DNA of 64,000 bases from Hydrotalea sp. (GTDB lineage Bacteria > Bacteroidota > Bacteroidia > Chitinophagales > Chitinophagaceae), in NCBI GenBank assembly GCA_027364735.1, contig DAHXOT010000032.1:81495-145494 (forward strand). Reading direction: 5' to 3'. The notes below the pieces were generated by a model. That model ran no database searches. It was not told the origin of the DNA and saw nothing but the letters and a program-made list of their open reading frames with translations. Of this stretch, positions 1,272 to 41,869 are shown in pieces. Within the stretch, counting starts at the first letter, position 1. Each line of letters opens with the position of its first letter. The position numbers and the translations under genes were made by a program.

Positions 1272-2282
1272 TTAAGCATTCAAATAGTTGTCAAGTTCGT
1301 GCATCATTTCGCTGCTACCAATAAATAATGGCGAGCGTTGATGCAAATCGGTTGGTTGAATTTCTAAAATTCTATTTTTACCATCAGTAGCTTTACCTCC
1401 GGCCATTTCAATAATAAATGCAAATGGATTACACTCATACATTAATCGAAGTTTGCCATTTGGTTTATCGGTTGTTGCTGGATACATAAAAATTCCACCT
1501 TTAATTAGGTTTCTATGTACATCGGCAACCATACTTCCAATATATCGTTGCGTGTAAGGCCCTCCGGTATTTTTATCCTTTTTTTGGCAACCATCAATAT
1601 ATTTTCTTACACCTTCGGCGTATTGAAAGAAATTGCCATGATTTACCGAATATATTTTGCCTGAAGGAGGGCATTTAATATCGGGATGACTTAAACAAAA
1701 TTCTCCAATTGCAGGATCTAAGGTAAATCCGTTTACACCTCTTCTGGTTGCGTATACTAACATGGTAGAGGAGCCGTACACAATATAACCTGCAGCAACT
1801 TGTCGTATTCCGGGTTGCAAAAAATCTTGTTTTTCACAAGGCTCTCCTATTTTAGTTATTCGCCTGTATACTCCAAAAATTGTTCCTATAGAAATATTAA
1901 CATCAATATTACCACTGCCATCTAACGGATCGAAAGTAACAACATATTTACTATTATTACTAACATCATCATTAAATACAATAATATCATCTAATTCTTC
2001 ACTGCCAATACCTGCACAACTAATTCCATGCTGCAACACACCCATTAATTGATTATTGGCATATACATCTAATTTTTTTACATCCTCGCCCTGTACATTT
2101 ACCGCTCCTGCATCTCCCAAAATATCTACTAATCCGGCTTTATTAACTTCTACATTAATTCTTTTCGCAGCTAATCCAATATCTCGTAATAAACTACTTA
2201 ACTCGCCGGTTGCGGTAGGAAATTGTCTTAACTGATGAATGGTAAACTCATCGAGCGTTAAAATTTTTCTATTGATAAACAT
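1272..2282 (-). CDS. fbp: Fructose-1,6-bisphosphatase class 1
   Basis: This enzyme hydrolyses fructose 1,6-bisphosphate to fructose 6-phosphate, the committed step of gluconeogenesis, in the cytoplasm. Its 336 aa match the usual class 1 length. The metal and phosphate motif DPLDGSGN is at residues 118-125, preceded by the acidic SEELDD metal site near 94-99. The substrate-binding segment GSMVADVHR lies further on and the MYECNPFAFIIE motif is near the C-terminus. It is the first gene of a three-gene minus-strand operon (exported protein, ABC ATPase). It is divergent from lysC across a 121-bp gap, so both promoters must lie there. The start is an ATG at 2282. Confidence 0.96.
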   Translation of the reverse strand: MFINRKILTLDEFTIHQLRQFPTATGELSSLLRDIGLAAKRINVEVNKAGLVDILGDAGAVNVQGEDVKKLDVYANNQLMGVLQHGISCAGIGSEELDDIIVFNDDVSNNSKYVVTFDPLDGSGNIDVNISIGTIFGVYRRITKIGEPCEKQDFLQPGIRQVAAGYIVYGSSTMLVYATRRGVNGFTLDPAIGEFCLSHPDIKCPPSGKIYSVNHGNFFQYAEGVRKYIDGCQKKDKNTGGPYTQRYIGSMVADVHRNLIKGGIFMYPATTDKPNGKLRLMYECNPFAFIIEMAGGKATDGKNRILEIQPTDLHQRSPLFIGSSEMMHELDNYLNA

Positions 2283-2350
2283 GGAAAAGAATTTTTATAA
2301 AGATAACAATAGAGCGGTTATAGAAATTACGAAATTATAAAAATTAAAAC

Positions 2351-2385
2351 TTTGTTTTTCTACAACATTACCCAACTTATCTTTG
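2351..2385 (+). promoter_or_regulatory. Bacteroidota-type promoter for lysC
   Basis: A TTTG (-33 type) at 2351-2354 is followed after 23 bp by TATCTTTG at 2378-2385, an exact match to the Bacteroidota -7 consensus TAnnTTTG. The spacing is within the 17-23 bp range I recall for Flavobacterium promoters. The lysC ATG lies 18 bp downstream, so the leader would be very short. Confidence 0.6.
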
Positions 2386-2403
2386 CCGCCAATTAAGTGA
2401 AAA

Positions 2404-3660
2404 ATGAAAATTTTTAAATTCGGCGGAGCCAGCGTAAATAGTATTGAAAGAATTAAAAGTATGGCTGCCATTGTAGATCAATATTCGAATGAACAAATAT
2501 TAATTATTGTTTCGGCAATGGGTAAAACAACCAATGCCTTAGAAAAAGTTGTTGAAGCTTTTTATGCCGGAAATAAAGAACAAGCCCTTCAATTATTCGA
2601 TACAATAAAAAAACAACACCTTACTACTTCAAAATATTTGTTGGTAACTACCTTCAATCATTGCATGGCTCAGTTAACTGAATTTTTTACTGAAGTAGAA
2701 TGGCTTTTGCACGATAAACCGGTAAGAGAATTTGATTATTATTATGACCAAATTGTTTCTATTGGCGAACTGTTTAGCACGTCTATCATTAGTCATTATC
2801 TAAATGAAGTTGGCCTTGAGAATAATTGGATAGACGTACGCGATTTGGTAAAAACGGATAATAATTTTAGAGATGCTACGATAGATTTTATAGAAACATC
2901 CGATAAAATTAAAAAAGCCATATCTGTTGATGGCAAAACCAGGTATTTAACTCAAGGCTTTATTGGCTGCACCGATGAAAATGAAAGTACCACATTAGGA
3001 AGAGAAGGTAGCGATTTTACTGCTGCCATATTTGCCAATATTTTAAATGCAGAAAGTGTAACTATATGGAAAGATGTAGAAGGCGTTATGAATGCAGATC
3101 CTAAAGAATTTCCTGATGCACAACTTATTGAAGAATTAAGCTTTAACGAAGTAATAGAAATGGCCTATTATGGTGCTCAGGTAATTCATCCTAAAACTAT
3201 TAAACCACTCCAAAACAAACAAATACCGCTATTGGTAAAATGTTTTTTACAGCCTCATTTGCCAGGAACTATTATACACAATACCAAAAATAAAAACCTG
3301 CCACCGATTATTGTAAACAAACAAAATCAAGTTTTAATTGAATTAGTTAGTCAAGATTTTTCGTTTGTTGGCGAAAAACACATGGCAGAATTGTACCAAA
3401 TACTTGCCCATATTAAAATTAAGCCTAACCTTATTCAAACAGGTGCTATTAATATTCAGATTTGCTTAGACGATAAAGTGGAAAAAATTGATCAACTGGC
3501 TATAGTGGCTTCTACAATTTTTGATACCCATATTGAAAAAGGATTAAAATTATTAAGCATAAGGCATTATACTACCAATAGCATAGAAAACTTATTGAAA
3601 GAAAAAGAAGTTGTACTGGAACAAAAAACGAAATCTACCATTCAGGTGTTGTACAAATAA
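2404..3660 (+). CDS. lysC: Aspartate kinase (monofunctional)
   Basis: The enzyme phosphorylates aspartate to aspartyl-4-phosphate, the first step toward lysine, threonine, methionine and diaminopimelate. It is 418 aa. The N-terminal kinase motif KFGGAS is at residues 5-10 and the TLGREGSDFTAA substrate motif is near residue 198. The segment AYYGAQVIHPKTI, which closes the kinase domain, is near 254. The last 120 or so residues are ACT-like regulatory sequence. No homoserine dehydrogenase domain is fused, unlike thrA-type enzymes. Its TAA stop abuts the stop of the convergent histidine kinase gene with no gap (3660/3661). Feedback control is expected from the family, but the effector cannot be read here. 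Confidence 0.93.
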   Translation: MKIFKFGGASVNSIERIKSMAAIVDQYSNEQILIIVSAMGKTTNALEKVVEAFYAGNKEQALQLFDTIKKQHLTTSKYLLVTTFNHCMAQLTEFFTEVEWLLHDKPVREFDYYYDQIVSIGELFSTSIISHYLNEVGLENNWIDVRDLVKTDNNFRDATIDFIETSDKIKKAISVDGKTRYLTQGFIGCTDENESTTLGREGSDFTAAIFANILNAESVTIWKDVEGVMNADPKEFPDAQLIEELSFNEVIEMAYYGAQVIHPKTIKPLQNKQIPLLVKCFLQPHLPGTIIHNTKNKNLPPIIVNKQNQVLIELVSQDFSFVGEKHMAELYQILAHIKIKPNLIQTGAINIQICLDDKVEKIDQLAIVASTIFDTHIEKGLKLLSIRHYTTNSIENLLKEKEVVLEQKTKSTIQVLYK

Positions 3661-5034
3661 TTAGTTTAATTTAAAATGCACGGTAAATCTATTAATATCG
3701 GGTTTAATAGCCGTGTAATCAAAAGTGCCGGCATGCAATGATACAATACGATGCACTATTGAAAGTCCTAAACCAAAACCTTTTACCGCAACTGCATTGC
3801 TGCCTCTAAAAAAAGGAACTTTTAGTTTTTCTATTTCTGAAGCAGAAAGATGCTGCCCATAATTATCTACCAGTACATGAATATATTTATTACTGGCATC
3901 AATACTTAGCATTACTTTTTTATTAACTGAATATTGCCAAGCATTTTTAATTAAATTAGAAAAAGCCACTTTCAATAAAGCTTCATTTCCATGAAGCATC
4001 AAATCTTTTTCATCATCCGGAATATTAATAAAATCGAGGTCAATTTCAATTCCATTCAACATTCTTCTGGCGCTTCCAATAGTTTCCATTAATAATTCAT
4101 CTATTCTAACCAACGGCCATTGATTGGTAACATTAATTCTCTCGTATTGCGATAATAATAATAAAGAATTGGTTAAATCAATCATCGCAATTTGATCCTC
4201 ACGCAAGGAAGATAATAAGGTACGATATTCATTCTCGGAAAGATTTTTACCTAATGCCAATTCGGTTTGAGAAAGCATAGTAGCCAATGGTGTTCTTAAT
4301 TCATGCGAGGCATGATGAACAAAATTTTTTTGCGATTCGAAAGATTGATTTAACCGTTCAAGCATTGCATTAAAACTTTTGGCAATTTGGTGTAATTCAT
4401 CCCGATGTTTTCCTTCATTCAATCGGTCGGTTAAATTCAATTCGGTAGTTTTTTGCATTTGTGCACTTAAGCTCATTAAAGGCCGAAATAAAGATTGTAC
4501 AAACAAATACGAAACAAATGCCGTTAATAGTATTCCCAATAACAGTATCCAAAGTAAAAACCACTGTAAAAAATGTTGCCTTTGCAATCCATTTTTATCA
4601 ATTGCAGAAACAATAAAAAAATATTTATCTCCAGCATTAATAGCTATGCCATTTCTTTTGCCATCAATAAATCTATACTCTTGGTTTGATAAAGTAATAG
4701 CCTTATCGAATACCGAATAGTAAACATTTAAGTTAATGGAAGATGGTTCTGCATATAATATGTTTTTGGAAGAATCGAATAAAATCAGTTCTTCTTCGTA
4801 ATAAGAGTTTCGATGAATATTTAGTTGCTGTAATAATAGTTTCGATGAATCGGGTTTTATATTATTGATAGCATTATACTGATCGTACAACAAAATACCT
4901 TCATCACGTAATCTTCTATAAAAATCGGTAGTTCTATATCGAACATAAAAAATATAAATACCTGAAGAAATAATCAGTAATAATACAGAAACAAAAATGG
5001 TAAAAGTTGTTGTAAACTTAAGCTTCAAGCTCAT
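3661..5034 (-). CDS. Sensor histidine kinase (HAMP, HisKA, HATPase)
   Basis: This membrane kinase of 457 aa pairs with the OmpR-family regulator encoded 5 bp upstream. Transmembrane helix 1 spans about residues 10-30 and helix 2 about 156-179, bracketing a periplasmic sensor domain of some 125 residues. A HAMP linker follows (about 180-232). The phospho-acceptor motif HHASHELRTP places the active histidine at 244. The ATPase N box (NLIKNAWQY) and G box (GFGLGLSIV) are intact. The layout matches CusS/ArlS-type kinases, but the ligand is unknown. Its stop codon directly abuts that of lysC. Confidence 0.93.
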   Translation of the reverse strand: MSLKLKFTTTFTIFVSVLLLIISSGIYIFYVRYRTTDFYRRLRDEGILLYDQYNAINNIKPDSSKLLLQQLNIHRNSYYEEELILFDSSKNILYAEPSSINLNVYYSVFDKAITLSNQEYRFIDGKRNGIAINAGDKYFFIVSAIDKNGLQRQHFLQWFLLWILLLGILLTAFVSYLFVQSLFRPLMSLSAQMQKTTELNLTDRLNEGKHRDELHQIAKSFNAMLERLNQSFESQKNFVHHASHELRTPLATMLSQTELALGKNLSENEYRTLLSSLREDQIAMIDLTNSLLLLSQYERINVTNQWPLVRIDELLMETIGSARRMLNGIEIDLDFINIPDDEKDLMLHGNEALLKVAFSNLIKNAWQYSVNKKVMLSIDASNKYIHVLVDNYGQHLSASEIEKLKVPFFRGSNAVAVKGFGLGLSIVHRIVSLHAGTFDYTAIKPDINRFTVHFKLN

Positions 5035-19265: not shown

Positions 19266-19448
19266 CTACTTCTTCCTTTTCTCTCTAATCTTCTTTACAC
19301 CATAACCTACACCACCGGCAATTAATAAACTTAAGCCGCCGTCAACAGGGGCTGCATTGGGCGGTGTTGGTTGAGCCAATAAGGGTAATGCCGGTAATAA
19401 AAAACATACCATTAGTAATAGTATATTGATGAGTTTTCTGTTTTTCAT
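19266..19448 (-). CDS. 60-residue exported mini-protein with CTERM-like tail
   Basis: This 60-aa protein consists of little more than two sorting signals. Residues 1-25 form a signal peptide ending LPLLAQ. A short linker TPPNAAP leads to PVDGG, then a glycine-rich hydrophobic segment (LSLLIAGGVGYG), then a strongly basic tail (KKIREKRKK). Motif, hydrophobic helix and basic tail in that order is the tripartite CTERM plan used by exosortase- or rhombosortase-type systems. From memory, similar Bacteroidota tails are annotated PID-CTERM. No exosortase gene is in the window. It is 33 bp downstream of the large SBBP cargo gene and is probably in the same operon. Function is unknown. Confidence 0.7.
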   Translation of the reverse strand: MKNRKLINILLLMVCFLLPALPLLAQPTPPNAAPVDGGLSLLIAGGVGYGVKKIREKRKK

Positions 19449-19481: not shown

Positions 19482-22400
19482 TTAGTTCTTAATTGCTTTT
19501 AATACCGGTAAAGCTGTGCCATCCCCTGTTAGTTTAAAATAAAAACTGCCTGCCGGTATATTTCCTCCATTCACTTTATCACTACTTCCTTTAACTACAT
19601 TTTTAAATATTCCATTCGCTATTGTTTTTCCAACTCCATCTACCAATTGCCACTGTAATTGATTATAACTATGCCTGCTAAATAGTGTAAAACTGCCGGT
19701 ATTTGTTGGATTATTTAATAAGATAATTGGCAAATCAACACTACTATTAGTGGTTAATTTTGGATTAATTACCACCGAAAACCTCGTAAAAGATTGCGAC
19801 TGTGCATCGGATGTTACCAAAAAAGTGTACACCTTAGTATTTCCATCAATTAATGTATATTCATTCCGATAACTATCGTATAAGTATGCGTTATTTCCAT
19901 TGGCTATACCCGATAATAAATTAATCCCTATCTCATAAGTACCTTCCTCCAGTTGTTTTATTCCCAATTGCACTTTACGGTTTTCTTCATCGCTGTTTTT
20001 TAATGCTGCACCATGAAAAATAGAATACACTGTTTTATCATTGCCAATAACCGATAAATCCGGCCCCGTTGCCCTGCCCAAATCATATCCATCAAATTGC
20101 AAATCAAAACTATCAGTTGCCGCAAAGCCACCACCCCATCTAACTATTACTTCATCGGCATATTTATCTCCCTGTTTCAATAATGCTAATTTGATAATAC
20201 TTTTATTATTGCCCATTGTATTATCGCCAATGCCATTAGTTGCAATAGTTCCCCTGTTTTGAATGTTCATCATTGAAGCAGTTACTGCACTTGTTGTTTT
20301 ATCACTCTCAGTAATTGATAAATTAGAAGCACTTGTTGCCTGTACAAAAAACGCTGATCCATTTTCTAAAACATTACCCTGATTGCCTATTTGCGAAACA
20401 GTATTTGCATTGTACGAACCATACGCTGTTGTATTCGGATCGTAACGATACACAGTGGCTGCAATGTTTGCACTGTTAGGCGTATAAATACTTGTCCAGT
20501 TTAAATTAGAAGGAAAAGGATTGGCAATAAGGTTCCAACCATTTTTTGCTTTTGTTAATGCTATGGTTTGCGTACCCGTATTAATTGGCCCCGTAAAATT
20601 AATTATTGAACCTGGTGTTCCACCAATTAATAAAATACCATTCTTGGCCGAAGTTGTTCCGCTGGTAAATTGTGTCCATCCTGCATTTACAGTACCGTTA
20701 TTGCCATAATGTGTTTGATCATCTGCTCCTTCATTATAAGTGTATGCATTATAGCCACTGGTATAAAAGCCCGCTAAAGTACTTTGTGCAATCGTTGTTG
20801 CCTGTGTAAATGGAAAACCGATCATTCTCCATTGTGCAGAACTGCCTATATATCGCTGAACAGTTACATTCCCACTTAAATAACTACCGCTTCCTTGCGC
20901 AATACTGGCACTGCCACTGCCGCTTGAGGTTAATACTAAATTTCCATTTGTTGTTAATGTGCCCGATGTTGGTGTTATTGTTCCCGTAACCGATTGTACA
21001 GTATTGCTAACAGCTATATTTACACCGTTTGAATTGTTAATGGTAAGATTATTGATTGTTCCTGTACCCACAATATTTTGGGAAACAGATCCATTCAATT
21101 GTAAACTACCAGAACCGGATATGGTTCCCGGATTATAAACATCATAAGCTGTTTGCAAAGTATTGGTTGTGGCAGTTATACCTAAGTTATACAAATTACC
21201 GCTTAAAGTTAAAGTTGAAGTAACATTTAAAGATGCTCCAGATTTCACTACCAAATTCACTAATGATTGAGAAGATGATAAACTTGGGCTATTACTTGTA
21301 CCTGATGGTATTACCGCAACACCAGTACTTGTAGGAACAGCCGCCCCACACCAATTACTTGCAGTTGACCAAGCTGTACTTGTTCCTCCTGTCCATCTGT
21401 AAAAACTATTATCACATTGCGTATATCCTGCAACAAAAATTGATCTGCCCGTTCCCGCACTGATAGTATTAGAACCTGATGGATTAAAGTTAACATTGCT
21501 GCTTGCAAATACTCCTGTTGTTAAAACATTACCACTTATATCAACATTAATTCCATAACTTATGTCTGCACCACTTCCACCCAAAGCATACGCATAACTA
21601 TAAGCTCCACTATTTGTATATCTGGCAACAAACGCATCTGTACTTCCACCTGCACTTAATGTATGAGTGCCTGATGGATCAAAGTTGATAGAAGAGTTCA
21701 TAAACTGCCCTGACACATATACATTCCCGCTTGGGTCTAATGAAATACTGTTACCTTGAGTTGCAAGGGTAGATGTTGAACCGGTTACTTTTAAAGCCCA
21801 TTGATAAAAAGAGGTACTGCTGGGTGTATAATTAGCATTATACTTTGCTACAAAAACAGCACCATAACCATTGGTTGTTAAATTATGAGTACTACTGCTT
21901 GGGTCAAAATCAAGGGTAGAAGTGTAGCTGTTAGGTACTGCACCATCGTAATCTCCAAACATCCCAGTTATATATATATTTCCACTGGCATCTGCAGCTA
22001 TATCATTCACCCAATCAAAATCCCATGAGGATAAAGTAAATGCCCATTGAAAAGTACCATTGCTATTATACTTTACCACATATCCATCAGGCATTGATAA
22101 GTTTGATGTTGCATTAGTTGGTGTTCCAAATTGATAAGTAGTACCCGCAGTTCCGTTACTAAAATCTACATAACCGGTATTACCTGTTAATCCAGGTGGT
22201 GTTGCATTACTGCCATCATTTGCAAAAAAGCCACCTACTGTATAAACATTACCTGAACCATCTACTGCAATTCCCCTGCTACCATACCATACCTGACCGT
22301 TACCTCCAACATCTGATGATGTTGTTTTTGCCCATTGATAAAAAGAGGTACTGCTTGGTGTAAGGTTGGCATTATACTTTGCAACAAAATAACCAAAAAA

Positions 22401-23078
22401 GCCAGAGCCAAGTGTATGCGTATTACTACTGGGATCAAAATCGAAATTTTCATCTACAATAGCACCGGAAACATATAAATAACCTGCATTATCTAATGCA
22501 ATACCAAAATTTCTATAAATAGGAGAGGCAGAATTCGAACACCGTCCCAAACAAAAATTCCATAGGTAAAAAGATGTACTCGATGGCGTTTTAGTACCAT
22601 CAAATTTAATAATGTAGTTTGAAGTACTTGAACCGGTTAAAGTTAAATTATTAGTATTAGAACTTGGGTCAACATCAAAAGCTGTAGTACTGTTTGTAAA
22701 GCCTATTACATAAATGTTACCCACTAAATCAGAAGCAATTTTTACTGCCGTTGTTTGTTTTCCTGAATATCCATAATTAAATGCCCATTGATATACACCG
22801 CTGCTGTTATATTTTACTACAAATGCATCAGTAGTACCAATAGCAGTTAAAGAGGCAGAACCAGATGGATTAAAATTTACCGTACCATTAAATGCACCTG
22901 ATACATAAATGTTGCCTTGACCGTCTTTTGCAATACTATAACCGGTTGTAAACATATTATCTGCATTAGGAGCAAGTGATAATGCATAATTGAAAGTAGG
23001 CTGCGCCTGAAGGAAATTTTGCTTAGCTGCAATTATACTTAGAATGCAAAAAAACAATAAATGTTGGGTAATTTTCAT
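19482..23078 (-). CDS. SBBP-repeat surface protein with T9SS type A sorting domain
   Basis: This 1198-aa exported protein carries an N-terminal signal peptide (to about residue 26). About seven beta-propeller (SBBP-like) repeats follow, each with a D-x-x-GN-(I/V)-Y-V-x-G core and a (D/N)F(D/N)PS turn. The segment TPSSTSFYQW or a variant recurs in three of them. Next come a W-TG-x-S-x-A-W-x-x-x-x-N-W adhesin-type module (about 560-660) and beta-rich sequence. The C-terminal 80 residues carry the features of a Por-secretion type A domain (NNPTNTGSFTLFS, GKTIANG, IPAGSFYFKL). It should cross the outer membrane by T9SS and be released or anchored at the surface. Ligand or adhesion target is unknown. 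Codon-level near-repeats reflect internal duplication. Confidence 0.88.
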   Translation of the reverse strand: MKITQHLLFFCILSIIAAKQNFLQAQPTFNYALSLAPNADNMFTTGYSIAKDGQGNIYVSGAFNGTVNFNPSGSASLTAIGTTDAFVVKYNSSGVYQWAFNYGYSGKQTTAVKIASDLVGNIYVIGFTNSTTAFDVDPSSNTNNLTLTGSSTSNYIIKFDGTKTPSSTSFYLWNFCLGRCSNSASPIYRNFGIALDNAGYLYVSGAIVDENFDFDPSSNTHTLGSGFFGYFVAKYNANLTPSSTSFYQWAKTTSSDVGGNGQVWYGSRGIAVDGSGNVYTVGGFFANDGSNATPPGLTGNTGYVDFSNGTAGTTYQFGTPTNATSNLSMPDGYVVKYNSNGTFQWAFTLSSWDFDWVNDIAADASGNIYITGMFGDYDGAVPNSYTSTLDFDPSSSTHNLTTNGYGAVFVAKYNANYTPSSTSFYQWALKVTGSTSTLATQGNSISLDPSGNVYVSGQFMNSSINFDPSGTHTLSAGGSTDAFVARYTNSGAYSYAYALGGSGADISYGINVDISGNVLTTGVFASSNVNFNPSGSNTISAGTGRSIFVAGYTQCDNSFYRWTGGTSTAWSTASNWCGAAVPTSTGVAVIPSGTSNSPSLSSSQSLVNLVVKSGASLNVTSTLTLSGNLYNLGITATTNTLQTAYDVYNPGTISGSGSLQLNGSVSQNIVGTGTINNLTINNSNGVNIAVSNTVQSVTGTITPTSGTLTTNGNLVLTSSGSGSASIAQGSGSYLSGNVTVQRYIGSSAQWRMIGFPFTQATTIAQSTLAGFYTSGYNAYTYNEGADDQTHYGNNGTVNAGWTQFTSGTTSAKNGILLIGGTPGSIINFTGPINTGTQTIALTKAKNGWNLIANPFPSNLNWTSIYTPNSANIAATVYRYDPNTTAYGSYNANTVSQIGNQGNVLENGSAFFVQATSASNLSITESDKTTSAVTASMMNIQNRGTIATNGIGDNTMGNNKSIIKLALLKQGDKYADEVIVRWGGGFAATDSFDLQFDGYDLGRATGPDLSVIGNDKTVYSIFHGAALKNSDEENRKVQLGIKQLEEGTYEIGINLLSGIANGNNAYLYDSYRNEYTLIDGNTKVYTFLVTSDAQSQSFTRFSVVINPKLTTNSSVDLPIILLNNPTNTGSFTLFSRHSYNQLQWQLVDGVGKTIANGIFKNVVKGSSDKVNGGNIPAGSFYFKLTGDGTALPVLKAIKN
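21796..22389 (-). repeat. Pair of near-identical ~60-bp segments inside the SBBP gene
   Basis: Segments at 21796-21855 and 22330-22389 share an identical first 26 bases and remain closely similar after that. They encode the TPSSTSFYQW-type motif and its flank in two propeller repeats. High nucleotide identity suggests recent duplication or gene conversion between repeats rather than selection on protein alone. A more diverged third copy lies near 22560. Confidence 0.7.
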
Positions 23079-23106: not shown

Positions 23107-24249
23107 TTAACTATTTACAGGTGTTGGGTTTACACCGCCGCTCCAATATACTTTGCAAGTTTCGGCATCTTCGTTCAGAGCTAAAATATTCTCCGAATTA
23201 TAAAAATCAGCAAACCTGATAACGCCAATAGCAATGGGTTCTGCATATAAATTTTGAGCATTGTAAGAATAACCGCCACCTACACTAAAAGCAAACGATG
23301 TTGAACCGACTTGTAATTCTGTATTTCCATTCAAAATACTTGCATCAGGCATATTGGTAATAGTTAATCTTGGAGGAACAGGTGATCCATCAAGTATAAA
23401 AGCAGCTACAAGACAATAATCGGCAACAGCCATAACCTTATTCATTGGTTCATCAAGAATATTGAAAGAAGCAGATTGCTCGGAATTGAATATTGAGATT
23501 ACATTAGATTGATAAAGCAATAAACTTGGCAAATACAAGCTAACAGCCACAGCAAACGATAAATTATTTTGGAATATTACTGTACCTGATGTATTACTAT
23601 TTATCTTTTTCTTTGCGCCATTTTCCCTTATTTCACTTGCACTATAAACGTATTGCCATATTGCAGTAAATAAGTTATCTTGTTGTTCTGTAGTTAAATT
23701 GTTAGATACTATTGCATTATAGTAAGAGTTGATAATAGCTTGCGATAAAAATACTTGCGAAAGATCTGCTACAATGAATGTACCGTTTGAATTATTTACA
23801 AATCCAATGTTCGAGGCGGTATTCATGTTATCGGAATTATAGGCATACCATGTAATTTGTGTAGGACTAATTTGTGCATTCCAATCCTGATTCATATTTA
23901 CACCTATTACCATTGGTGTTGAAAAATTTGCACTTAATTCAAATCCGAAATAATGTGCAGAATTTGTATTGCTTCTTCCCATAAAATGTATTTGTTGGGC
24001 ATTGGAAGAATTGCCAAAAGCAAATACTGAATCTGCACCATCATCTTCATCACTGGCACCCGATAAAAATTGTAAATCAAAACAATCAGTTGATTGTGCA
24101 TTAACTAATAAAGTACCGGGTGTTGTATTAAACCATTGTGACATTTGGTAAGTATTGTTTATCCAGTTATTACTTCCACTTGGGCCTACAACTATATTTT
24201 GTGAAGTAGCATTCACAATGGTCACATCTGTAAATCCTGCTGGTTGCAT
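23107..24249 (-). CDS. Unrecognised 380-residue protein
   Basis: I do not recognise this family. The protein is rich in Asn, Ser and Thr with alternating hydrophobic residues, suggesting a beta-sandwich. It opens DVTIVNATSQNIVVGPSG, and contains an acidic segment (SGASDEDDGADSVFAFG) near residue 64 and a charged ENGAKKKIN stretch near 213. There is no obvious signal peptide from the ATG at 24249 and no in-frame upstream start that supplies one. There is also no T9SS sorting domain. It lies 28 bp upstream of the SBBP cargo gene on the same strand, so co-expression is likely. Only two to three cysteines are present. A lectin-, aegerolysin- or pore-former-like fold is conceivable but unsupported. 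Confidence 0.6.
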   Translation of the reverse strand: MQPAGFTDVTIVNATSQNIVVGPSGSNNWINNTYQMSQWFNTTPGTLLVNAQSTDCFDLQFLSGASDEDDGADSVFAFGNSSNAQQIHFMGRSNTNSAHYFGFELSANFSTPMVIGVNMNQDWNAQISPTQITWYAYNSDNMNTASNIGFVNNSNGTFIVADLSQVFLSQAIINSYYNAIVSNNLTTEQQDNLFTAIWQYVYSASEIRENGAKKKINSNTSGTVIFQNNLSFAVAVSLYLPSLLLYQSNVISIFNSEQSASFNILDEPMNKVMAVADYCLVAAFILDGSPVPPRLTITNMPDASILNGNTELQVGSTSFAFSVGGGYSYNAQNLYAEPIAIGVIRFADFYNSENILALNEDAETCKVYWSGGVNPTPVNS

Positions 24250-36222: not shown

Positions 36223-36243
36223 TTAAGTTTTATCTTGCCAAGT

Positions 36244-36885
36244 ATGACAACTATTACCATTGCCATTATAGTATTAACCTGTATAATTTCCATATCGGCC
36301 TTTTCGAGAGAAAAAATTATTGATGATTTTATTTTTTATCCTCCTGCAATAACCAATCAGCATCAATGGTATCGGTTTGTTACTTGCGGGTTTATTCATG
36401 CCGATATTCCTCATTTACTTTTTAACATGTACTCATTTTATATGTTTGGCGAAGTGATAGAAGATGCATTTGATAAAATATATGGAAGTAAAGGAAAGTT
36501 ACTTTTTTTATTACTTTATTTTTCGGCATTGGTAGTATGCCTATTACCTACTTATTTTAAAAATAAAAATAATTATTATTATAAAAGTTTAGGTGCATCC
36601 GGAGCTGTTTCTGCAATAGTATTTGCTTTTATTTTTTTAGCTCCTACCGCTAAAATAGGTTTAATGTTTATTCCTATTCATGCTCCGGCTTTTTTATTTG
36701 GTATTATTTATTTGGGCATTTCGTATTATTTGGCTCATCGAGGAGAAAGCAGAATTAATCATTCGGCTCATTTTTGGGGTGCCGTTTACGGAATTATTTT
36801 TTTAATTGTTACCGCACAACTATTAAGCGAATTTAGACCGGTTGATAATTTTACTATTGATATAATTAACTATTTTAAAAAATAA
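36244..36885 (+). CDS. Rhomboid-family intramembrane serine protease
   Basis: This membrane protein of 213 aa has about six transmembrane helices. The catalytic serine lies in GASG (SLGASGAVS, near residue 120) and the histidine in NHSAHFWGA (near 176), so the dyad is intact. The family motif HLLFNMYSFYMFGE is near residue 57. It would cleave transmembrane substrates within the bilayer; the substrate is unknown. The ATG at 36244 is used instead of a TTG at 36235. Its stop is 2 bp from the convergent tilS stop. Confidence 0.9.
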   Translation: MTTITIAIIVLTCIISISAFSREKIIDDFIFYPPAITNQHQWYRFVTCGFIHADIPHLLFNMYSFYMFGEVIEDAFDKIYGSKGKLLFLLLYFSALVVCLLPTYFKNKNNYYYKSLGASGAVSAIVFAFIFLAPTAKIGLMFIPIHAPAFLFGIIYLGISYYLAHRGESRINHSAHFWGAVYGIIFLIVTAQLLSEFRPVDNFTIDIINYFKK

Positions 36886-40150: not shown

Positions 40151-41869
40151 ATGATGAAAAAACTGCTGTTTTTATACTTGTTTTTATTGTTAATACAGTT
40201 GTTGCAGGCACAATCTGTTTGCCCTATTAGCTCGTTAGGACAGAACCCCAGTACAGCATTTCCTGTTTGTGGTGTTAAAAGTTTTTCACAAGGTTCAGTT
40301 AATCTTTGTGGAAATACAGTTGTTCCGGTTCCGGCGTGTAATGGAACAGTTACTTATACCAACATCAATCCCTACTGGTATAAGTTTACATCCTACACAT
40401 CGGGCACTTTAGAATTTGTAATTACACCTAATAATTTAACCGATGATTATGATTGGCAAATTTTTGATATAACCAATAGCCAAAATCCAGATTTTGATGT
40501 GTTTAATAATACAAGTTTATTTGTTGATTGTAATTGGTCAGGCGTAACCGGGCAAACCGGAACTTCCGATACAGCCTCTGCCAATAACCAATGTGCCTCT
40601 CCAACTACTTATGCTGCCGGTGGTGTTTCTCCTTTTAGCAAACCACCCAATTTAATAAAAGGCCATACCTATCTTTTATTGGTAAGTCATTTTACTAATA
40701 CGCAGAGTGGTTATTCACTTTCCTTTACAGGCGGAACTGCCAGCATTACCGATCCAAGTATTCCGAACTATATTAAAGCTTCCGGTATTTGTGGAGGCGA
40801 TAAAGTTTCCATTAAACTTACAAAAAGAATTTTATGCAATACCATTGCTGCTAATGGAAGCGATTTTGCCATAACACCTTCCAATGGTTTTAGCATTTCG
40901 AATGCATCTGGATATAATTGCAATAGCAGTTTCGATACCGATTCAATTATTGTTCAACTAAATGGTTTACTATCTCCTGCCAATTATATTATTCAACAAC
41001 AAATAGGTACTGATCAAAATACTTTGTTAGATAACTGCCAAAATGCTACACCGGTTGGCACATCTACTCCATTTAATATTGTATCGCAACAACTAATAAA
41101 AGCCGATTTTAATTACACTATTCGCTATGGTTGCGTAATTGATACCATAAATTTTTATTTAGGAGGAAGAAATGTAGTTAATTGGACTTGGATATTTGAT
41201 AGCTCTATTGTTAATACAACAACAGTTAACCCAATTCTTTATTACACAACTTATGGCAAAAAAACTGCAAAGCTAATCGCCCAAAATACAGTTTGTACCG
41301 ATAGTGCATTTATAAGTTATACGCTAACCAACTCACCTTCAAAAGCAGCATTTTCATCTGCTAATTTTGCTTGTCCATCCGATACGGTTTCGTTTCAAAA
41401 TAACAGTATTGGCCATATTGCTTCTTGGTATTGGGATTTTAGTAACGGGCAAACATCTACCAATAAAAACCCTGCAACACAAATATTTCCGGCATCTAAT
41501 AGCTTAAAAGAATATCCTGTAAGTTTAGTAATTACCGATTCAATTGGCTGTTCCGATACAACCTATAAAATTATTACTGTAGCTCCTAATTGTTATGTTG
41601 CAGTTCCATCGGCTTTTACCCCCAATGGAGATGGAAGAAATGATTATTTATATCCATTAAATGCTTACAAAGCAAGTAATCTTATTTTTAGAGTATTTAA
41701 TCGGTTTGGTCAATTAATTTTTGAAACGCAAGAATGGACTAAAAAATGGGATGGAAAACTAAATGGTATTGATCAACCGGCAGGAACGTATGTTTGGTAT
41801 TTGAATTATACCGATACTGATACTCATAAAAATGTTTCTTTAAAAGGCACAACAGTTTTAATAAGATAA
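40151..41869 (+). CDS. PKD-like surface protein with T9SS type B (gliding-type) C-terminal domain
   Basis: This 572-aa exported protein has a signal peptide ending LLQAQ. The N-terminal half contains beta-rich sequence with several cysteines. PKD-like domains follow around residues 310-390 and 395-475 (for example WYWDFSNGQTSTNKNP). The last 90 residues form the CHU_C/gliding motility-associated domain: AFTPNGDGRNDYLYP, FRVFNRFGQLIFE, WDGKLNG and PAGTYVWYLNY. That domain directs export by T9SS, with type B cargo usually kept at the surface. The ligand is unknown. The tRNA-Arg gene follows on the same strand. Confidence 0.92.
   Translation: MMKKLLFLYLFLLLIQLLQAQSVCPISSLGQNPSTAFPVCGVKSFSQGSVNLCGNTVVPVPACNGTVTYTNINPYWYKFTSYTSGTLEFVITPNNLTDDYDWQIFDITNSQNPDFDVFNNTSLFVDCNWSGVTGQTGTSDTASANNQCASPTTYAAGGVSPFSKPPNLIKGHTYLLLVSHFTNTQSGYSLSFTGGTASITDPSIPNYIKASGICGGDKVSIKLTKRILCNTIAANGSDFAITPSNGFSISNASGYNCNSSFDTDSIIVQLNGLLSPANYIIQQQIGTDQNTLLDNCQNATPVGTSTPFNIVSQQLIKADFNYTIRYGCVIDTINFYLGGRNVVNWTWIFDSSIVNTTTVNPILYYTTYGKKTAKLIAQNTVCTDSAFISYTLTNSPSKAAFSSANFACPSDTVSFQNNSIGHIASWYWDFSNGQTSTNKNPATQIFPASNSLKEYPVSLVITDSIGCSDTTYKIITVAPNCYVAVPSAFTPNGDGRNDYLYPLNAYKASNLIFRVFNRFGQLIFETQEWTKKWDGKLNGIDQPAGTYVWYLNYTDTDTHKNVSLKGTTVLIR

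Follow-up and report, generated by a model that had tools for sequence, protein, structure and literature searches.

The protein of 60 residues encoded at 19266..19448 of the window (by which we mean the whole 64,000-nucleotide stretch of Hydrotalea sp. DNA analysed here) belongs to a family of C-terminal sorting tails, its genome holds an exosortase, and its gene is paired with that for a large protein bearing a module common to the partners of such mini-proteins; across genomes, mini-protein, exosortase and module co-occur. We propose, at what we judge to be an even chance, that an exosortase processes the mini-protein, the lesser partner in a pair of genes, and that its short peptide partners the module protein. 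This pairing of mini-protein and adhesin suggests that two protein-sorting systems cooperate on the surface of the cells.

Anatomy of the mini-protein

Features in and around the gene, all on the minus strand:

19266..19448, minus: PID-CTERM mini-protein gene, 60 aa (open reading frame MKNRKLINILLLMVCFLLPALPLLAQPTPPNAAPVDGGLSLLIAGGVGYGVKKIREKRKK), with a match to NF046080 and two further tail proteins in the genome
19374..19448, minus: predicted signal peptide of the mini-protein, residues 1-25, cut between LPLLA and Q, read by eye from the sequence
19350..19373, minus: linker of the mini-protein, residues 26-33, QPTPPNAA, varying among relatives
19269..19349, minus: PID-CTERM tail of the mini-protein, residues 34-60, of which 34-57 match NF046080, near invariant in 31 close relatives
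19482..23078, minus: partner gene, 1198 aa, with signal peptide, SBBP beta-propeller repeats, module and a divergent T9SS-like tail
19740..20996, minus: module of the partner gene, ~400 residues, common to mini-protein partners and without a Pfam or NCBIfam family
19485..19739, minus: C-terminal ~85 residues of the partner gene, T9SS type-A-like, weak (9.6 bits without own-genome rows)

The coding strand is the minus; the plus strand of 19266..19448 has stops throughout. The product comprises a signal peptide and a linker of 7-8 residues, then PVDGG and a hydrophobic segment rich in Gly, and ends in basic residues. This three-part plan, with no cargo domain, had been read from the sequence in the initial annotation and compared there with exosortase-type sorting signals; both the anatomy and the comparison stand, as residues 34-57 of the 60 match NF046080 (PID_CTERM, NCBIfam) at 46.5 bits (E 2.2e-12), over the cut-off of 26, with the match at the C-terminus and a signal peptide ahead of it. 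Pfam yielded no matching family. The cut of the signal peptide is placed before Gln on the strength of the Bacteroidetes ‘Q-rule’, which we assume to apply here. The layout is retained in relatives whose best segment is 47-91% identical, which, taken with the family match, indicates that this open frame is more than a product of chance. The mini-protein is a genuine member of a named tail family, a name that does not in itself imply pairing with a module gene. On the same strand, 33 bp separate its gene from the 1198-aa gene upstream, and no terminator-like site was found near or behind it.

An exosortase in the same genome

The initial annotation had singled out, as what would speak against it, a genome with no other proteins of the same tail and no sorting peptidase; both are present. 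In the host genome (2.77 Mb, 99.9% complete) the PID tail exceeds its cut-off at three places, each a mini-protein behind a large gene, that of the window being joined by two others. The generic exosortase model, PF09721, has zero matches in this genome at E<=10, and the notion of a host without exosortase, to which this null gave rise, is ruled out by A1, a profile made from 46 short exosortases, which finds an exosortase of 194 aa at C29:34351-34893 (E 2.5e-35). Cys and Arg columns are invariant in the A1 alignment, with His kept in at least 90%, and the host enzyme has the corresponding DGCNALEL, NVSRLA and IAHHYIF; we take these conserved residues to be the catalytic ones. It scores over the cut-off of TIGR04178 (exosortase/archaeosortase family; 45.8 bits, cut-off 23), and below those of NF046081 (exosortase X; 123 bits, cut-off 170) and TIGR04128 (XrtF; 80.2 bits, cut-off 90). 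The exosortase gene is overlapped by a gene for a membrane protein of 155 aa without a family match, and lies away from all three mini-protein genes. Among solved structures, no chain matched the exosortase profile.

In a survey of 296 genomes of the class Bacteroidia (completeness at least 90%), 131 had both PID tail and A1 exosortase, 3 the tail only, 45 the exosortase only and 117 neither; counted by genus, the figures were 82, 1, 17 and 66. The exosortases behind A1 come from the very genomes surveyed and many adjoin PID mini-proteins, so that this count leans towards agreement, and kinship is handled at genus level only; the 45 exosortase-positive genomes without a PID match turned up despite that bias. 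The T9SS machine is uninformative as a co-occurrence marker, because SprA is present in 288 of the 296 genomes.

The cargo-free form is the norm

The 134 genomes with a PID tail are those with a match at E<=1e-3; 125 have one over the NF046080 cut-off. Among the matches listed for the positive genomes, all are open frames of 33-194 aa with the sole exception of one of 995 aa. The cargo-free mini-protein is the norm for the PID tail, and the window protein is therefore not odd for missing a cargo; the suggestion in the initial annotation that this form is exceptional does not survive the comparison.

The 995-aa frame corresponds to a multi-helix protein of 973 aa with the PID-like tail VPIDGEVWVLLAGG (genome G169, L094, 6983..9904, minus strand), the one large carrier among the matches listed. 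It was considered as a fusion of PID tail to large cargo and rejected: it carries no T9SS tail in the list from our own profile, and so does not join cargo and PID tail. Several mini-protein paralogs apiece were seen in uncultured Chitinophagaceae genomes. By a crude pattern count, 47 of 136 mini-proteins scanned (L039, L041 and L107, for example) have a Cys pair, as in CWPPPC, in the linker just ahead of PIDGG.

In the 31 close relatives the tail is near invariant and the linkers differ in both sequence and length (7-14), with a mean pairwise identity in this close clade of 0.90 for the tail versus 0.49 for the linker. We considered the linker as a contact site for the partner, but a Mantel test of distances to the partner gene (r 0.67 for the linker, 0.63 for the signal peptide and 0.38 for the tail) gave this no support: linker and signal peptide are not separated by it, so the pairs are inherited or copied together, with the linker not singled out as a contact.

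A recurring gene pair with a common module

Neighbourhoods of the mini-protein genes came from 120 + 20 genome stretches, which cover a part of the matches listed; our own PID profile kept 137 mini-proteins there and missed at least one (that of G172, L184), and the 3 of the 137 with less than 600 bp upstream were dropped, to give n=134 for neighbour counts. With lenient gap limits, 75/134 have a gene for a T9SS type-A-like tail protein directly upstream and 53/134 an exosortase gene directly downstream, 23/134 having both neighbours and 29/134 neither. Under stricter limits, a T9SS-tail gene stands ahead of 68/134 mini-protein genes versus 39/1369 control genes in the same stretches (Fisher 6e-52, uncorrected for kinship). 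In an outside check, 39/43 of the upstream proteins match TIGR04183. For the close relatives, where 400 bp or more of upstream sequence was required and 6 mini-proteins at contig edges were set aside, a module gene is ahead in 19/21 and a T9SS-tail gene in 17/21. The T9SS-type neighbour is half of a recurring pair, not a coincidence, and the initial annotation holds in that the gene directly ahead of the window mini-protein is of a T9SS-cargo type, although its tail is weak (below).

The genes upstream of the mini-proteins have differing N-terminal sides (SBBP, kelch, G8, PKD, ice-binding and others) and share, ahead of the tail, a module of ~400 residues. It is found in 69/72 mini-adjacent T9SS-tail genes versus 8/54 other T9SS-tail genes, 6 of these 8 having a mini-protein within the same stretch, and in 27/29 mini-adjacent genes held out of the training of its profile. 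When 58 module sequences were scanned alone against Pfam and NCBIfam, scattered weak matches only were returned. The structure model is all-beta (pLDDT 81), with 0 matches in the PDB at E<=0.001.

In the window, the module of the partner gene reaches 194 bits against a profile made without rows from the host genome. The T9SS-tail profile was first seeded with three own-genome tails, and was rerun without these rows; the best domain of the partner gene then scores 9.6 bits versus 50 and 41 bits for the two host counterparts, and its tail has no match in Pfam or NCBIfam, TIGR04183 included. These scores place the partner gene in the module family, with a T9SS tail that is divergent or reduced. 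It had been claimed that the mini-protein follows a T9SS cargo gene: the module does tie this neighbour to T9SS cargos, but with so weak a tail the assignment is less certain than stated there. Searching the host genome with the module gives four matches in three genes (one gene in two frames), and these are exactly the genes ahead of the three mini-proteins, each module gene adjoining one, which fits the paired reading. At L086 (G000:C30, ~1470-3738) the partner gene runs over two frames, with the module in two pieces and the mini-protein gene behind it intact; the assembly may be wrong at this point, or the gene may be broken.

The module, to which neither Pfam nor NCBIfam assigns a family, is thereby marked in 178/296 genomes. 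Module and exosortase occur together in 162, the module only in 16, the exosortase only in 14 and neither in 104 (by genus 92, 9, 7 and 58), as counted with a module profile that, like A1, is drawn largely from the same 296-genome set; module, exosortase and PID mini-protein are found together in 127.

Three further genes of the window may be recorded here. A 380-aa protein is encoded at 23107..24249 on the minus strand, 28 bp ahead of the partner gene, whose transcript it may share, and neither Pfam nor NCBIfam matches it at E<=1. On the plus strand, 40151..41869 encodes PKD-like sequence with the C-terminal tail SAFTPNGDGRNDYL..., which, recognised by eye, we take to be gliding/T9SS type-B-like. 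A rhomboid-like gene lies at 36235..36885, 17 kb away from the mini-protein gene.

Divergent mini-proteins and unpaired module genes

Were a mini-protein the regular companion of module and exosortase, PID-negative genomes that hold both would be expected to have divergent mini-proteins. We looked at 20 stretches from 13 genomes with module and exosortase and without a PID match, and in 7/13 (G103, G019, G035, G133, G014, G191 and G145) there is a divergent mini-protein behind a module gene, four of the seven being detected by profile at E<=2.9e-5 and three by eye; the prediction is borne out in part. In G077 and G270 a match to the mini-protein profile adjoins the exosortase, with no module gene in the stretch, and in G153 the exosortase is directly behind one module gene. 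No mini-protein was seen at the module genes of G054, G143 and G068, or at second places of G133, G153, G103 and G145; in all, ten stretches or genes of this 13-genome check have a module gene without one. A further 17 genomes provided 30 loci, 28 of them with a module gene, accompanied by a tail-type mini-protein in 10 (mostly called by eye), by one of a second kind (below) in 2, and by none in 16. Many module genes stand alone; one mini-protein may serve several of them, or none.

A model for the pair and its alternatives

We propose a model in which removal of the Sec signal peptide would leave a short Pro/Gly/Asp peptide in the inner membrane, held there by the PID-CTERM helix. The exosortase of the genome would then cut the mini-protein at or near PVDGG and join the short peptide, by the C terminus thus freed, to an acceptor, perhaps a lipid or a glycan, such that the attached peptide could reach the outer surface or matrix. 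We suggest that the large neighbour, exported by T9SS, would use its ~400-residue module together with this peptide, and that the two might serve in attachment, or help to assemble a layer of the surface or of a biofilm. Cleavage, acceptor, surface location and peptide-module binding are drawn here from the exosortase literature and from the anatomy of the mini-protein. Counted against the paired reading are a host exosortase that adjoins no mini-protein and falls below the XrtX and XrtF cut-offs, the weak T9SS tail in the window, the unpaired module genes, the mini-proteins with neither neighbour, and the exosortase genomes that are PID-negative.

The mini-protein could instead stay whole, as an inner-membrane helper or regulator for export of the co-expressed T9SS cargo, with the exosortase merely turning it over; were the signal peptide to remain uncut, it would take the shape of a hairpin. 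Conservation of the tail and not the linker in the close clade, and the adjacency of mini-protein and cargo genes on one strand, speak for such a role. However, an exosortase is kept in 131 of the 134 PID-positive genomes, the position of 53 of 134 mini-protein genes directly upstream of one fits a substrate, and a conserved tail behind varied N-terminal parts resembles a recognition tag, so that we consider this alternative unlikely.

Another setting for the mini-protein is polysaccharide export, with the peptide attached by exosortase to EPS and the link to T9SS secondary. In 28/134 mini-protein loci there is a gene for a protein with a Tyr/Gly tail, as defined by a pattern of our own, which we presume to be Wzc-like; 22 of these are among the 53 loci with an exosortase directly downstream. 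Such genes fit the known tie between exosortases and exopolysaccharide, exosortases being known from EPS clusters (in those parts of PMC1569441 on which we draw), but none of the three host mini-proteins, nor the host exosortase, has a Wzc-like neighbour in the stretches read, and the module co-occurs with exosortase genome-wide. We regard a role centred on polysaccharide as quite improbable.

A second kind of mini-protein lies directly behind module genes in 7/7 cases, from two genomes of the same genus (G238 and G125), and consists of an N-terminal helix followed by a short peptide end such as ASPEPPGGGF. The pattern is ITRKEALxKIGxYGKYTA..PKKAQA then SPExPGxGF (L334, L333, L332 and L331 in G238; L309 in G125), and the one scanned against NCBIfam has no family. 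That the released peptide is a signal or secreted factor, with the large partner as its receptor or carrier, would accord with these second-kind mini-proteins, which probably yield no more than a ~10-residue peptide and 6 of 7 of which are in a genome (G238) without an A1 exosortase match. They occur in 2/296 genomes only, however; main-kind linkers, unlike a conserved signal, differ from one another in both length and sequence, and the role of receptor is conjecture. We give this reading very little credence.

Comparison with known systems

The paired reading, in which an exosortase-cut mini-protein partners a module-bearing protein, can be set against several known systems. GlyGly-CTERM with rhombosortase is alike in its Gly-rich motif, helix and basic end, and in the many-to-one pairing of tail and intramembrane protease, but the co-occurring enzyme of the PID tail is an exosortase; identity with this system was considered and rejected, no GlyGly-CTERM model appearing among the mini-protein matches at E<=1. 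For PExPT-CTERM/XrtJ (TIGR04200), a model length of 57 positions suggests that its target is also a cargo-free mini-protein, whereas the window mini-protein, at 10.8 bits, falls well short of its cut-off of 40. The three-part C-terminal signal recalls PEP-CTERM/EpsH, as does the EPS neighbourhood of a part of the mini-protein loci; the motif, however, is another, the PID tail is carried on cargo-free mini-proteins, and PF09721 misses the host exosortase.

Closer is the system described by NF046080, NF046081 and NF046082: the window tail is over the cut-off of the first, the host exosortase is nearest to XrtX, and many XrtX loci have a membrane protein gene overlapping that of the exosortase (NF046082 being the XrtX-associated membrane protein), as the host does with its 155-aa protein. 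Unlike that system, the host exosortase lies below the NF046081 cut-off and its neighbour is without a family. The term ‘PID-CTERM’ was not found in the literature searched, and among the matches listed there is none on a biological use of XrtX or XrtY.

The XrtF system of Flavobacterium johnsoniae (TIGR04128, TIGR04127) is similar in having a short exosortase with an overlapping membrane protein, and XrtF-type genomes in our survey also hold the module, but the host exosortase is below the XrtF cut-off (80.2 of 90). In a Flavobacterium-like genus of the XrtF-type group (the name is a guess), no mini-protein was seen beside the module genes read. For F. johnsoniae, the parts of PMC10936215 on which we draw report that deletions of xrtF, of its neighbour Fjoh_1449 and of the hypothetical gene Fjoh_0651 (FJOH_RS03415) reduce sand colonisation, give far less biofilm and abolish zorbs, and group them in one table row with the deletions of porU and porZ. 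That row also contains FJ0334, a mutant in a polysaccharide gene, and the phenotype is thus not specific on this evidence. A fragment of 434 bp, presumed promoter included, complemented Fjoh_0651 (same parts of PMC10936215), from which the gene must be short, and the authors leave the exosortase substrates open in those parts. Our guess is that Fjoh_0651, a gene known here from the literature only, encodes a mini-protein of the PID kind.

Taken at its broadest, and as a tentative idea that we think rather less than probable, this would amount to a two-part form of surface sorting, in which exosortase-cut mini-peptides dock or assemble module-bearing T9SS adhesins to build one surface in many Bacteroidia, with Fjoh_0651 as the missing XrtF substrate. 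The pairing offers PID-CTERM mini-proteins as candidates for short exosortase substrates in Bacteroidota, and module-bearing T9SS proteins as candidates for their partners, and it bears on why xrtF mutants of F. johnsoniae resemble T9SS mutants in the portions of PMC10936215 considered here.
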